Assembly (NCBI GenBank): GCA_003670575.1
Contig: QWRD01000005.1
Span: 1 to 64,000 of the forward strand
DNA length: 64,000 bases
Direction of reading: 5' to 3'
DNA from: Chloroflexota bacterium
Lineage (GTDB): Bacteria > Chloroflexota > Dehalococcoidia > UBA2979
Shown: piece after piece, positions 10,721 to 20,632 of the stretch
How positions within the stretch are numbered: the stretch's first letter is position 1
Layout: every line of letters begins with the position of its first letter
Notes under the pieces: generated by a model
Databases searched by the model: none
The model's input: only the letters and a program-made list of their open reading frames with translations
Told to the model about the DNA's origin: nothing
Made by a program: the position numbers and the translations under genes

Positions 10721-11692
10721 CTATCTGCCGCGAATCACATCATTGATAGCGTCGCCGAGCAGTGCGAACGCGAAGAGCAGCGCGGAGACGCATAACCCCG
10801 GCACCAGCAGCAAGTGCGGGTGCTGCGCGAATGTGCGAGCACCCGACCCTTCGAAGATCATCGCACCGAACGAGGGGGTGGGCGGCTGCACGCCGACGCC
10901 GAACCAGGTCAGTGCCACCTCGGACCCCGCGACGGATCCCAGCGTCGCAGAGAGTTGCAGCACCACCAGGAACGCGACGTTCGGCAGCAGGTGCTGCCAG
11001 AGGATGTGGATGGTGCCCCCACCCAGCGCCTGCGCCGCCAGCACGAACTCGCGCTCCCGCAGTTGGAGCACCTGCGCTCGCACCAACCTCGCGGTGCCGA
11101 CCCAGAAGAAGAGGGAAAGCACGCCGAAGACCGTGAGGTACGAGGAGAACGGACCGGCGATGCCGCCGAACGGCGTATGTTGCTCGACCCAGCCCCCGAA
11201 TTGGATGATCCGAGGCCCCAGAGCCGCGTTGACCAGAATCAGCATGGGGAGACCAGGCAGCGCCGAGAGCACCTCGCCCGCGCGCATGATCAGGTTGTCG
11301 ACCCAGCCGCCGCGATACCCCGCCAGCAGGCCGAGGCCGTTGCCGATCAACAGCGATCCGGAGACCAGCACCGCCACGCTGACCACCAGGGTGGTACGCG
11401 CCGAGTACAACGTCCGGCTGTACATATCGCGACCCAGCCGATCGGTTCCGAGCCAGTGCTCACGGCTCGGCCCCTCGAGGCCTCGATCCAAGTTCTGCTC
11501 GGTGAACGAGTACGGAGCCAGCACCGGCGCGAGAATGCCGCCGCCGTAGATCACCGCGATCACGACGAGCGACAGCATCGCCAGTCGCTTCCGGCGCAGG
11601 CGCGACCAGAACAGCGACGACGGGCTGCGTGACGCCGACGCACCGGCGGCAGCGGGACCGGGGGCCATCGCCTCCGGGCTGGCGGTGGTCAC
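10721..11692 (-). CDS. ABC transporter permease, OppC/DppC type
   Basis: Second inner-membrane subunit of a peptide/nickel/opine-type ABC importer, 323 residues. HWLGTDRLGRDMYSR is the hallmark at the start of the conserved domain. The EAA loop (AAQALGGGTIHILWQHLLPN) couples to the ATPase. GTG at 11692 overlaps the oppB-like stop (GTGA). No ATPase genes (oppD/F type) occur in the window, so the ATPases must be encoded elsewhere. Confidence 0.9.
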   Translation of the reverse strand: MTTASPEAMAPGPAAAGASASRSPSSLFWSRLRRKRLAMLSLVVIAVIYGGGILAPVLAPYSFTEQNLDRGLEGPSREHWLGTDRLGRDMYSRTLYSARTTLVVSVAVLVSGSLLIGNGLGLLAGYRGGWVDNLIMRAGEVLSALPGLPMLILVNAALGPRIIQFGGWVEQHTPFGGIAGPFSSYLTVFGVLSLFFWVGTARLVRAQVLQLREREFVLAAQALGGGTIHILWQHLLPNVAFLVVLQLSATLGSVAGSEVALTWFGVGVQPPTPSFGAMIFEGSGARTFAQHPHLLLVPGLCVSALLFAFALLGDAINDVIRGR

Positions 11693-14524: not shown

Positions 14525-16327
14525 TCATAGCGCAGCCGCGGGCGCGACAACTGCGATGTGCACCTCGGCGAGCTGCGCGGCGCTGACGGGCGACGGTGCA
14601 CCAGTCATCGGGTCGGATGCCGACTTGGTCTTCGGGAACGCGATTACCTCGCGGATGTCGCGCTCGCCCGCGTAGAGGGCCACGGTGCGATCGATGCCGG
14701 GCGCCATGCCGCCATGAGGCGGTGCGCCGAAAGCAAACGCCTCCAGCATGTGCCCGAACTTCTGTTCGGCCTCGGCATCCGACATGCCCAGCAGCGCCAG
14801 CACGCGACTGAGCAGCGCTCGCTGGTGGATACGAATCGAGCCAGAGCTGATCTCCTGGCCGTTGCAGATCAGGTCGTAGGCGTGGGAGCGTACCGACCCG
14901 GGGTCGGACTCCAGGCGGTCGACGTCCTCCGCGAATGGCGCGGTGAACAGGTGGTGCACCGCGCTCCACCGCGATTCGTTCTCGTCCCACTCGAACATCG
15001 GGAACTGCGTGATGAACGCGAACTCGAGGCGGCTCGGGTCGGCGAGCGCGCGATCCTCCGCGAGCTGGCGGCGCAGCACATCGAGCGCGCGCGAGGAGAT
15101 TGCATCCCGATCGGCGACCGCCAACAGGAGGTCACCGCGACCCGCGCCCGCGGCCTGCGCCAGCGCGACGATCTGCTCTACGGTGAAGAAGCGCGCCACG
15201 GGTGACCGCACCTCATCGAGGGTGATCGCCTCGATCGGCCCCTCTCCGGTGAACGCCATCGTCACCAGACCCTGCGCCCCTGCCTCGCGCGCAAGTTCCG
15301 TCAGCGCGTCGATGCCACGGCGCGCGATGTCCGCGCCACCCGGCACCGCGATAGCGCGTACGCGCCCGCCAGCCTCGATCGCGCGCTTGAAGACCACGAA
15401 CTCGCTCTCCCGCACCAGCGGGGACAGGTCGGCGATCTCCAGCTCATAGCGCAGGTCGGGCTTGTCCGAGCCGAACCGCTCCATCGACTCCCGATAGGTC
15501 ATGCGTGGAAACGGCGATGGGAACGAATACTGCGGCGCAACGGCAGCCGTCATCGCGGTGTACAGCCCCTCGACGAGGTCGAGCACGTCGTCTTCCTCGA
15601 CGAAGGACATCTCGAGGTCGAGTTGCGTGAACTCGGGCTGGCGGTCGGCGCGCAGATCCTCGTCACGGTAGCAGCGCGCGATCTGGAAGTAGCGTTCGAG
15701 GCCCGCGACCATCAGCAGCTGCTTCCACTGCTGTGGCGACTGCGGCAGCGCGTAGAACGAGCCGGGGTGCACCCGGCTGGGCACCAGATAGTCGCGCGCG
15801 CCCTCGGGCGTGGCGAGGTTGAGCACCGGCGTCTCTACCTCGATGAACTCGTGGCTGTCCATGAACTCGCGGATGAACTTCACCACGCGGTGGCGGAGCC
15901 GGAGATTGCCGGTCATGCGCTCGCGGCGGAGATAGAGGTAGCGATAGCGCAGCCGGGCAATCTCATCGACCGGTGTGTCCTGATTCACGGGGAACGGCGG
16001 TGTCTCGGCGGTGTTGAGCACCTCCAGGTGCGCGACCGCGACCTCCACAGCGCCCGTGGGCATCTCCGCGTTTTCCGTGCCGGGGCGGCGCGCTGCCACC
16101 TCACCACGTACGAGGATCACGTACTCATTCCGCACGTCGGCGGCAACGGCGAAGGCCGCCGGTGCCTGCTCCGGGTGCAGCACCAATTGCACGATGCCGG
16201 ATGCATCGCGCAGGTCGATGAACGCCAGTCCACCGTGGTCGCGCCGCCGGTGCACCCAGCCGACCAGCGTCACCTGCTGCCCGACGTGCTCCACGCGCAA
16301 TTCCCCACCGCGATGGCTTCGGATCAC
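14525..16327 (-). CDS. aspS: Aspartyl-tRNA synthetase
   Basis: Charges tRNA-Asp; bacterial type of 600 residues. It has the N-terminal OB fold (LVGWVHRRRDHGG), class II motif 2 (CYRDEDLRADRQPEFTQ), the bacterial GAD insertion (about residues 290-410) and motif 3 (GMAPGIDRTVAL). The start is GTG at 16327 with AAGGGG about 10 bases upstream. Whether it also charges tRNA-Asn cannot be decided here. Confidence 0.96.
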   Translation of the reverse strand: MIRSHRGGELRVEHVGQQVTLVGWVHRRRDHGGLAFIDLRDASGIVQLVLHPEQAPAAFAVAADVRNEYVILVRGEVAARRPGTENAEMPTGAVEVAVAHLEVLNTAETPPFPVNQDTPVDEIARLRYRYLYLRRERMTGNLRLRHRVVKFIREFMDSHEFIEVETPVLNLATPEGARDYLVPSRVHPGSFYALPQSPQQWKQLLMVAGLERYFQIARCYRDEDLRADRQPEFTQLDLEMSFVEEDDVLDLVEGLYTAMTAAVAPQYSFPSPFPRMTYRESMERFGSDKPDLRYELEIADLSPLVRESEFVVFKRAIEAGGRVRAIAVPGGADIARRGIDALTELAREAGAQGLVTMAFTGEGPIEAITLDEVRSPVARFFTVEQIVALAQAAGAGRGDLLLAVADRDAISSRALDVLRRQLAEDRALADPSRLEFAFITQFPMFEWDENESRWSAVHHLFTAPFAEDVDRLESDPGSVRSHAYDLICNGQEISSGSIRIHQRALLSRVLALLGMSDAEAEQKFGHMLEAFAFGAPPHGGMAPGIDRTVALYAGERDIREVIAFPKTKSASDPMTGAPSPVSAAQLAEVHIAVVAPAAAL

Positions 16328-16419: not shown

Positions 16420-17196
16420 TCAGACCCGCCGCGCCACGATGACGTCGCGATCGAGGTATTCGCCAAGCCCGCCGCCGGATGGGACGAAGCGGCCGCCGCA
16501 CGTGATGAACGTCGCGCGCTCCTCGCCAGCCGACATCCCGGATGGCCAGATGATCTCCCCCATCGGGATGCGGCGTACATCGTAGCGAGTGTTCGAGATC
16601 ACGAGGTAGCGCACGCGTGCCCCGTCCGAGAGGGTGACCTCCACCTCGTCACCATCGCGTGCGAGGTGCAGTGAGTAGAACGGCGCGTGTGTCCGGTTCC
16701 AGGTCTCGTGCGCGGCGAAGACCGTGTTCCCGCCATAGCCGGGGGTCGCGTACTCCGGATACCACCCGACGGCGTTCACCCCGTCCGATGGCGATTCCAT
16801 CTGCCCATTGACGACGCCCACACGCTCGATGCCGTGATCGACGCCGAGCCGTGGCATCGCGACCCGAGCCACACGCAGGCCCGGTGGCGGCCGGACGGGT
16901 GCGGGCGGCGCAACGGGAATCGAGGCGGGCGACCCTGCCGTCGACGGCGCGACAGCCTCCGGTGCCACAGCCGTCTCCCCCGAATCCGCGAGGCGTGCGA
17001 GGTGTGCACCGGCAGCGGGCGCAGACAGGGGTGGCCGCACACCAGACGCCACCGCACTCGCCGTGAACGAGGCACCGACGACCAGCGCCGAAAGCGCGCC
17101 CGCCAGCACCACGCGCCGTGGCACGCCGTCCAACGCGGTAAACAGGCATCGAGCGTGCCAATGCACCTCGGCGGGGAGGTTGATCGCGATGCGCAT
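16420..17196 (-). CDS. Sortase, class E/F-like
   Basis: Transpeptidase that anchors surface proteins to the cell wall. A membrane helix (about residues 29-50) is followed by an Ala/Pro linker and the sortase barrel. The catalytic triad is visible: H163 (FAAHETWN), C233 (TFITCGGRF) and R250 (YLDRDVIVARR). 258 residues. AGGA precedes the ATG at 17196. It is divergent from a cupredoxin gene whose C-terminus ends in a PPKTG-type sorting signal, its likely substrate. The class is a guess from the short loops and the TC motif. Confidence 0.88.
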   Translation of the reverse strand: MRIAINLPAEVHWHARCLFTALDGVPRRVVLAGALSALVVGASFTASAVASGVRPPLSAPAAGAHLARLADSGETAVAPEAVAPSTAGSPASIPVAPPAPVRPPPGLRVARVAMPRLGVDHGIERVGVVNGQMESPSDGVNAVGWYPEYATPGYGGNTVFAAHETWNRTHAPFYSLHLARDGDEVEVTLSDGARVRYLVISNTRYDVRRIPMGEIIWPSGMSAGEERATFITCGGRFVPSGGGLGEYLDRDVIVARRV

Positions 17197-17369: not shown

Positions 17370-18478
17370 ATGCGAAGCATCAAACATCTCGCGTCGGCGA
17401 CGCTGATCGCCGCGCTCGCGCTGGGAGCAGGCACGCTGTTCCACACCGACGCTTCCGCACAGACAGCCGGGCCAACCGTGCTGGTCGGTGCGGGTGAGCC
17501 CGGATACGCGGTCAACCTGTTCGGCGGCGACAAGCTGACGGTGAAGACCGGCACCACCGTGACCTTCAAGTCCAACTGACTGGAGCCGCCACGGTCACCT
17601 TCACCGCGGGAGGGCCAGCCCCGGCCCCGAGTGACCCGAAGGCTCCGGTTCCGTCCAACCCCGGCGTCGCGGTGAATCCGTACGACGGCACGACCTACCT
17701 CAGCTCAGGCTTCATCGTGCAGGGCACTCCGAACGCGAACTTCCAGGTGAACTTCCCGAAGGCTGGCTCGTTCCCGTTCCTGTGCATCATCCACCCCGGC
17801 ATGGCCGGCACCGTGACGGTCTCCGACACCGCCACACCGACATCGCAGGCCGACATCGATGCTGCCGCGCAAGCGGCCTTCAGCGCCGCCACGCCAGCGT
17901 TGAAAGCAGAGGCCGCCAAGCTCGCGCAGATTCCGGTGACCCAGCGCGCGAATGTCGACGGTTCCACGACCTGAAAGATCAACACCGTCGGCGGCTTTGT
18001 GCCGCCGTCCGATGTGCAGCAGTTCTTCCCGCCCTCCATGAACGTTCGGGTGGGCGATACGGTCACCTGGCGCTCGTCCGTGCCGACGCCGCACACCGTG
18101 AGCTTCCTCGGCGGCACCCCGCTCATCGTCCCACCGAGCCTGGAGAACCCGAAGATCTTCGCACCCACGCCGGCCCCCGCAGCCGGGTATGACGGTGTGG
18201 GGTACGTGAACTCCGGTGTCATGGGTGTCGGCTTCCCCGGTCAGGGCTTCTCCGTGAATTTCTCCCGCGCGGGGACGTTCGGCTACGTGTGCATCCTGCA
18301 CATCAGCCAGGGTATGGGCGGCACGATCAACGTGGCTGCGGCCGCGCCGGCACCGCCCAAGACCGGCTCCGGTGCGGCGAGCAACCCCGCGACCTCCATG
18401 GCACTCGTGGGCGTGCTCGCGGTGCTCGCACTCGCCACGGTTGGCGGTGCACGATTGGCCTCCCGCCGGGCGCGCTAA
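17370..18478 (+). pseudogene. Broken two-domain cupredoxin surface protein with sorting signal
   Basis: Signal peptide (MRSIKHLASATLIAALALGA) then two plastocyanin-like domains. Domain 1 keeps Cys-His-Met ligands (FLCIIHPGM) and domain 2 has PHTVSF and YVCILHISQGM. The tail has APPKTGSG, a hydrophobic helix and RRAR, a sortase-type signal. The frame is interrupted three times. TGA at 17577 stands where Trp is expected (SN-stop-LEP). One base is missing at about 17589, in what should be the copper-ligand His codon of PHTVTF. A second TGA at 17972 also replaces an expected Trp (STT-stop-KIN). A simpler single-base loss near 17578 would also restore frame, but without the His. The rest is well conserved, so the damage is recent or the stops are read through. 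Confidence 0.8.
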
Positions 18479-18504
18479 CCTCGACGCAGCGCTCTGGACT
18501 CAGC

Positions 18505-18535
18505 AGAGAGGCCCGGCGGATCGCCGGGCCTCTCT
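18505..18535 (+). terminator. Terminator after first cupredoxin gene
   Basis: Perfect 13-bp GC-rich stem (AGAGAGGCCCGGC) with a 5-base loop, 26 bases past the stop codon. No long U-run follows. Confidence 0.75.
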
Positions 18536-18648
18536 CGTATCCGATCCCCGCTCGCGACCGCGTGGCCAACCGATAAATGCGCAAGTCGCGCCACGCTCAT
18601 ACTGTGTGGCGAGGGTGTCGACGCCCACAGCGCGAGGGAGATGCAGCA

Positions 18649-19353
18649 ATGACGAACCGCTTGTCGATTGCGTTCGGGGTACTGGTCGCGGTGCTGGTTG
18701 CCGCACTGGGAACGTTCGCGGTTACTCCATCGCCAGTGGCTGCCCAGACAGCGACCGCGACCAGCACAGCCACCGCCACGCCAACGGGCACTCCCGGCCC
18801 CGCAATAAGCGGCACACTGCCGCGCAACGGCGGAACCGGACTGGGCGTGTGGACAGGCGGCCGAGTGGAGGATGTTCCCGGCGCGTCCGCAGCCCTCGGG
18901 TGCCGACTGCTCGCGCTGTAGCTCATCAACAACGGCGAGTTCGTCGGCTTCGTCTATGGCGCGCCCGACGCGGTGAACGCGACGTTCCGTGCGACCTATC
19001 CGAGCCTCGTCCCCGCGGGCGCGGTCATCGTCGTGTGCGGCGCTGGCAGCGCTCCTGCGATCGCGGCGACCGCAACGCCGACACCCATCCCGAGCACGGC
19101 TGCGGGCGTGAAGGAGTCGATGCTCATCGTCGGCTTCATTTTCCAACGCCATTTCGAGTTGCCGGTGGGCAGCAACATCACTTGGCGAAACATTGACGGC
19201 GTCCAGCACACGGTCACGGCGGATGACGGCAACTTCGACTCCGGAAGCATCACGCCAGGCCGGGACTTCAGCTTCACCTTCACGAAGCCCGGTACCTTCG
19301 CCTACCGCTGCACAATCCACACGTTCATGAGGGAGTCGGTGGTCATCCGCTAG
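18649..19353 (+). pseudogene. Broken cupredoxin-domain secreted protein
   Basis: ATG at 18649 with GAGGGAG upstream. The signal peptide ends near AVTPSPVAAQ and a Thr/Ala linker follows. A domain of unknown family covers GGTGLGVWTGG to NATFRATYP. The C-terminal cupredoxin has all four type 1 copper ligands: QHTVT, YRCTIH and TFM. TAG at 18919 interrupts the first domain in frame (LLAL-stop-LINNGEF); a Trp (TGG) fits there, as related proteins tend to have an aromatic W before V/L at this point (from memory). The downstream part continues to 19353 without further lesion and lacks a good internal start. It has no sorting signal. Confidence 0.75.
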
Positions 19354-19407: not shown

Positions 19408-19414
19408 GGTGCAC

Positions 19415-20632
19415 GTGACCACTACTTCGCGGCCCGCACTCGCGCTTTATTTGCACATCCCGTTCTGCACGGCGAAGTGCGGATATTGCGACTTCAACTC
19501 CTACGCCGGGCTCGACCATCTGGTGCCCGAGTACACGCCCGCGCTGGTGCGCGAGTTGGAGCTCTGGGCGCCGGCTGCCCGCGAGTTCGAGGTGCGCACC
19601 GTCTTCTTCGGTGGCGGCACGCCCAGCCTCAGCTCGCTGGACGACCTCGCCACGATCGCGGAGGCGGTGCGTGCCAACTACACCGTCGCCGATGACACCG
19701 AATGGTCGCTGGAGGCGAATCCCGGCGAACTCACGCTCGAACACCTGCAGGGGATGCGCGCCCTCGGCATCAACCGGCTCTCCATCGGTGTGCAGTCGTT
19801 GCACGACGACGAGCTGAAAATGCTGGATCGCATCCACACCGCCGACCGCGCGATCGAGGCGATCGAGGCAGCGCGCACTGCGGGCTTCGACAACCTCAAC
19901 ATCGACCTGATCTTCGGGCTGATCGACCAGCCACTCGCCCGTTGGCAGCAGACGCTGGAGCGCGCGCTCGCGCTGCGCCCGGAGCACCTGTCCTGCTACG
20001 CACTCACCGTGGAGCCCGGCACCGCGCTCTACTACCAAGTGGCGAAGGGCATCCTGCAGGCCCCGGATGGCGACATCGTCGCGGACCAGTACGACTGGAC
20101 GCGAGAGCGGCTGGCGGCCGCCGGATACCACCAGTACGAGATATCCAACTGGGCGCTGCCGGGACGAGAGTGCCGCCACAACCTGGTCTACTGGCGTGCC
20201 GACCCGTACCTCGGGATCGGGGCGGGCGCGCACTCGTTCTTCGCCGGGCAGCGCTTCGCGAACGTCGACGCGCCGAACAAGTACGTCGAGCTCGTGAACG
20301 CCACCGCCGAGGAGCGCCGCACCACGGGGCGCGCCACCATGCAGCAAATCAAGGGCGGCGAGCACCCCGACGAGGCAACGCTACGCTCCGATGCCATGAT
20401 CCTCGGGTTACGGCTGATCGAGGGCGTGGACGCTGTCGAGTTCGCCTCGCGCTTCGGCTGTACGGTGGAGGATGTCTTCGGTCCCGCCGTGGCGAAGCAC
20501 ATCGGCTACGGGTTGCTGGAGTGGGCCGACGGCCGGCTGCGCCTCACCGAGCGCGGCCTGCTGCTCTCCAATGAAGTCTTCATCGACTTGCTCCCCGACC
20601 GGGAGACGGAGCCAGCGCCCACCGAGGCCTGA
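19415..20632 (+). CDS. hemW: Radical SAM heme chaperone HemW
   Basis: HemW binds haem and delivers it to haem proteins. The 405-residue protein has the radical SAM cluster motif CTAKCGYCDF, where the F in place of a fourth Cys separates HemW from true coproporphyrinogen dehydrogenase HemN. GGGTPSL and the later ISNWALPGRECRHNLVYW block are family hallmarks, and the HemN C-terminal domain follows. GTG at 19415 is chosen from the -10 placement; GTG at 19409 is two codons longer. Confidence 0.92.
   Translation: MTTTSRPALALYLHIPFCTAKCGYCDFNSYAGLDHLVPEYTPALVRELELWAPAAREFEVRTVFFGGGTPSLSSLDDLATIAEAVRANYTVADDTEWSLEANPGELTLEHLQGMRALGINRLSIGVQSLHDDELKMLDRIHTADRAIEAIEAARTAGFDNLNIDLIFGLIDQPLARWQQTLERALALRPEHLSCYALTVEPGTALYYQVAKGILQAPDGDIVADQYDWTRERLAAAGYHQYEISNWALPGRECRHNLVYWRADPYLGIGAGAHSFFAGQRFANVDAPNKYVELVNATAEERRTTGRATMQQIKGGEHPDEATLRSDAMILGLRLIEGVDAVEFASRFGCTVEDVFGPAVAKHIGYGLLEWADGRLRLTERGLLLSNEVFIDLLPDRETEPAPTEA

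Follow-up and report, generated by a model that had tools for sequence, protein, structure and literature searches.

Two adjacent genes for surface copper proteins, designated gene A and gene B, have probably become pseudogenes only recently, in a lineage from which the pair is repeatedly lost. Both lie in a 64-kb stretch of DNA (the window) within a 78,244-base contig of a draft MAG from an uncultured Dehalococcoidia bacterium (1.34 Mb, 36 contigs, 67.6% complete; G000). An earlier note on this DNA had reported two in-frame TGA codons (17577 and 17972) and a TAG (18919) in the two genes, and all three are present in the sequence. As assembled, neither gene is able to make exported copper domains. 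Both are homologous to intact genes in relatives, the lesions block the full product, and none of the lesions is shared with the orthologues. In addition, both lesioned genes form one conserved pair and both flanks of that pair are intact, which lends further support to pseudogenization.

Table 1 Features of the lesioned locus, with positions in the window
Feature	Position	Strand	Observation
aspS	14525..16327	-	intact; flank of the locus; control for rate of change
sortase gene, class E/F-type	16420..17196	-	intact; divergent from gene A; equivalent divergent pair in G004
gene A	17370..18478	+	signal peptide, two type-1 cupredoxin domains, C-terminal PPKTG sorting signal; broken by two TGA and a 1-base deletion
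in-frame TGA (site 1)	17577..17579	+	Trp in 3/3 same-family orthologues
one-base deletion in domain-1 His codon	17586..17590	+	frame change 3->2; His in 31/31 homologues
domain-1 remaining copper ligands (C..H..M of CIIHPGM)	17783..17803	+	intact, 3' of the frameshift
in-frame TGA (site 2)	17972..17974	+	Trp in 3/3 same-family orthologues
domain-2 copper ligands (PHTV ... CILH....M)	18092..18316	+	intact
PPKTG sorting signal, hydrophobic stretch, basic tail	18353..18475	+	intact
inverted repeat, perfect, 14-nt, terminator-like	18505..18535	.	between genes A and B
gene B	18649..19353	+	signal peptide, N-terminal Chloroflexota surface domain, C-terminal cupredoxin domain; broken by TAG
in-frame TAG	18919..18921	+	N-terminal domain of gene B; Trp in 7/7 homologues of that domain
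hemW	19409..20632	+	intact; flank of the locus

When read with X at the lesions, gene A matches the plastocyanin/azurin-type family PF00127 over two stretches (score 8.8e-13) and gene B matches the same family with a score of 1.3e-4. The type-1 ligand set, an upstream His and then Cys, His and Met close to the domain's C-terminus, is complete in domain 2 of gene A and is present in domain 1 save for one damaged His codon, which we take to be the domain-1 copper ligand from its place in the fold and general knowledge of type-1 copper sites. The statement that the other copper ligands and the sorting signal of gene A had survived was borne out, with all of the motifs listed in Table 1 present. 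The reading frame of gene A shifts after CTG GAG CCG (17580-17588), and the missing base falls in the His codon of P-H-T within CCGCCACGG (17586-17594), in agreement with the base loss suspected near 17589. A single-base frame change in a surface-exposed protein is also what phase variation or programmed frameshifting toggling gene A might be expected to display. We consider such toggling scarcely credible, as positions 17580-17595 hold no homopolymer or short tandem repeat, the two further stops would block the product anyway and the frame change is conserved in no orthologue.

Ancestral residues at the lesions were established from relatives. A class-wide homologue search took in 393 genomes, and 31 homologues were aligned for residue counts in gene A; intact orthologues from the same family were available in three Dehalococcoidia/Chloroflexi MAGs, namely G004 (SSF39), G014 (Dino_bin15) and G343 (Kiruna2_bin-0196). 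The orthologue comparison proposed in the earlier note gave W, H, W and W as the residues hit by the four lesions, from same-family orthologues for gene A and from homologues for gene B, and thereby upheld the expectation of Trp at all three stops. Examples of the same-family segments are AGWLEPHTVTF at site 1 and DGSTTWRVA at site 2. Across the class, site 1 is W in 18 of the 31 homologues, and aromatic residues predominate at site 2 (W 8, Y 14, F 2 of 31). Two of the seven homologues with Trp at the TAG position are paralogues within the source genome itself. The placement of the lesions in cupredoxin genes holds for both genes, but the TAG sits upstream of the cupredoxin domain of gene B. 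The full-length gene A orthologues found elsewhere in the class are all open.

Each of the three nonsense changes is a G-to-A transition in a TGG codon, as the usual bias of mutation from C:G to T:A would favour; the remaining lesion is the loss of a single base. Translation of gene A would end after 69 residues (the signal peptide and approximately 40 residues more) and that of gene B after 90 residues, so that neither a copper-binding domain nor an anchored product is predicted to be exported. Both proteins are presumably non-functional.

The coincidence of all three stops with ancestral Trp positions, together with the apparent constraint on the remainder of the protein, could instead suggest functional readthrough, with TGA and TAG both read as Trp in genes A and B. 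This explanation is very unlikely, given that a base is missing from an invariant ligand codon, that TGA and TAG are mixed and that the tRNA-Trp is normal. The deletion lies 9 bases past the first TGA and cannot be read through, while a -1 shift at that point would insert Ala instead of the ligand. Intact TGG codons persist in both genes, and the other convincing internal stop in the source genome is a TAA at a Tyr site. Within the window, TGA ends 26, TAG 22 and TAA 5 of 54 genes. The single tRNA-Trp that was found carries the anticodon CCA, a five-pair anticodon stem (GCGGU/ACCGC), A9 and G24. UGA readthrough has been linked to a four-pair anticodon stem, A9C and G24A in tRNA-Trp (PMC13092985), none of which is present in the source genome's tRNA-Trp. 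A search of the tRNA hits of this 67.6% complete genome likewise detected no suppressor tRNA.

Genome-wide recoding of TGA and TAG was rejected because both codons are common terminators (48/54 window genes together), the tRNA-Trp is standard and the deletion in the invariant ligand codon is beyond the reach of readthrough; the stop usage and the tRNA-Trp thus agree with the earlier exclusion of general TGA recoding. The bacterial stop reassignments known so far involve UGA only (PMC8629427). UGA-to-Trp recoding in Mycoplasma, Zinderia and other reduced genomes has stops at Trp positions in common with the present case. Unlike those systems, the source genome yielded no tRNA-Trp with a UCA anticodon or a four-pair stem, TGA and TAG are widespread terminators, the G+C content is high, and a TAG and a deletion are involved. 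As this case shows, stops at Trp sites alone are no evidence for recoding. We also considered conserved readthrough in several class homologues flagged with one TAG, TAA or TGA inside. This candidate was dismissed, as the stops in the three that were read (L007, L008 and L015) are the normal ends of proteins that have no sorting signal.

To place the lesions against the genome background, relatives' genes were filtered by coding score and their proteins were aligned by tblastn to sampled stretches of the source genome, giving an aligned coverage of 272.6 kb, of which 50.0 kb lies in the window. Filtered genes were used since unfiltered queries (all ORFs >100 aa) gave mainly antisense-frame matches, and protein alignment was chosen over a codon-usage Viterbi frame-break scan whose output consisted mainly of ordinary operon boundaries. 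Elsewhere in the 273 kb aligned there are two other convincing breaks, compared with four lesions within 1.8 kb at this locus. No further credible break was seen in the 41-50 kb of the window aligned to relatives' proteins. Judged from the alignments, the remaining stops that were flagged seem to stem from antisense matches or from poor alignment. One of the two background breaks is a frameshift in an MFS-like transporter relative to its G002 and G014 homologues (L047, G000:C2:20001-32721, ~11540-11580, minus strand); the other is a TAA at a Tyr of the G002 homologue in an exchanger/antiporter-like gene (L161, G000:C1:160001-180000, ~6428, minus strand). In the sister genome G002, a DNA-glycosylase (Fpg)-like gene is also broken, by a TGA in place of Trp and by what look like breaks of the frame (L202, G002:C6:1-20000, ~8482, minus strand). 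Lesions of this type are thus not special to the window.

Measured against a background of two breaks in ~271 kb, four lesions in 1.8 kb correspond to a Poisson P of ~1e-9, or 1e-5 if the background is raised tenfold. Due to this clustering a uniform assembly-error rate is unlikely, whereas a locally bad stretch is unaffected by the argument. Judged from the sequence, the clustering argues for lesions that are in the organism and not just in the assembly, and they probably exist in the living population. The rival to be weighed at this point is a local artefact of the consensus, in which the organism carries intact genes and the assembled stretch is either poorly covered or stitched together from strains each carrying a different lesion. 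The genome is a draft MAG; many putative pseudogenes in 126,564 assemblies have been attributed to assembly errors, with low coverage raising the count (PMC11017572), and genes still under selection would fit both the conservation seen between the lesions and the missing missense load described below. Random errors, however, would also produce some 22-40 missense changes per nonsense change, and such changes are absent. An artefact would moreover need four errors to strike, by chance, a single functional gene pair already lost from sister genomes, in a genome with just two other convincing breaks in 273 kb. We therefore regard a local assembly or strain-mixture artefact as unlikely, though deserving real weight. 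Of the three options named in the earlier note, loss is best supported, assembly error is viable only if local and readthrough fares worst.

The sequence between the lesions suggests that the loss, if real, is recent. Outside its lesions, gene A carries 15 private changes at ~130 conserved sites, compared to 18-30 in the intact orthologues, and its terminal branch measures 0.44 against 0.39-0.41 for those orthologues. The aspS control branch is itself somewhat longer in the window lineage (0.20 versus 0.13 for G004), which means that gene A has, if anything, changed more slowly than would be expected. Third-position G+C is 0.849 in gene A and 0.806 in gene B, the mean for other genes being 0.858 with a standard deviation of 0.03. 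Decay is judged recent because gene A matches intact genes in third-position G+C, branch length and conservation. Relaxed constraint is not strictly defining for a pseudogene, and a very recent one may show none. As far as pseudogenization is concerned, the lack of an amino-acid-change excess in gene A is compatible only with a very recent loss.

The balance of nonsense and missense changes leaves one residue without explanation, which counts against pseudogenization, as does the fall of all three stops on Trp codons. With the mutation spectra that were tried, each nonsense change should come with ~22-40 missense changes, so that three nonsense changes would be accompanied by ~65-120 under neutral decay. 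Across the baselines and spectra assumed, the joint P of three nonsense changes with no visible missense excess is ~0.0005-0.03. The P that all three fall at Trp codons is ~0.002-0.02 under general spectra and ~0.07 if C-to-T changes alone are counted. This nonsense excess is mild, and the P values are modest and were examined post hoc. The figures are compatible with a very recent loss and a measure of luck, or with the merging of different broken alleles into one consensus; readthrough becomes no more tenable. A variant of the latter possibility is that loss of the pair was selected for in the population (for example by phage or metal pressure) and that several independent inactivating alleles coexist there and were merged in the consensus. 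If true, this would account for the stops and the deletion as well as for the lack of a missense load, but we consider it distinctly improbable. The prospect that anything functional underlies the lesions is slim at most.

The distribution of the pair among relatives speaks for its inactivation. Matches to A-type genes were obtained in 35/393 genomes of the class, among them G004 (contig C29), G014 (C44) and G343 (C85), in all three of which a small cupredoxin gene comes after gene A as a conserved arrangement. Genomes of the same genus have no gene A at all. The syntenic interval between the sortase gene and hemW contains neither A nor B in G001 and G005, and only a single-domain cupredoxin in G002. 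The locus is evolutionarily labile, and repeated loss of the pair in this lineage is probable.

The adjacent sortase was considered as a cause of the loss or as a partner lost with it. This was rejected, as the window has an intact sortase gene and G001, G002 and G005 keep the sortase in the absence of gene A; in the window it presumably serves other substrates and so stays intact. The sortase falls below both NCBIfam cut-offs, with 71 of 166 bits for class F and 34 of 160 bits for class E, and may represent a separate group within Chloroflexota. The source genome also encodes an intact copper nitrite reductase (G000:C7:15865-16770; TIGR02376, 335 bits). A brief look at NirK against gene A revealed no clear co-occurrence, NirK being above the cut-off in G000 and G343 but failing to exceed it in G004 and G014.

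A recently broken gene pair is ordinary in kind, and the kind is well known. Recent bacterial pseudogenes described as singleton fs-genes or annotated pseudogenes (PMC3711429) resemble the present pair in combining stops and a frameshift with intact orthologues, in being otherwise preserved and in not being conserved between species. The present case differs from them in that two adjacent, functionally related genes are hit, that every nonsense change affects a Trp codon and that unusually few missense changes accompany the lesions. Our literature searches returned no description of a sortase-anchored family with two cupredoxin domains. The locus would provide a clean case of a gene pair broken recently in one lineage while sister genomes are without the pair altogether, and the analysis documents a Dehalococcoidia family of sortase-anchored proteins with two cupredoxin domains.
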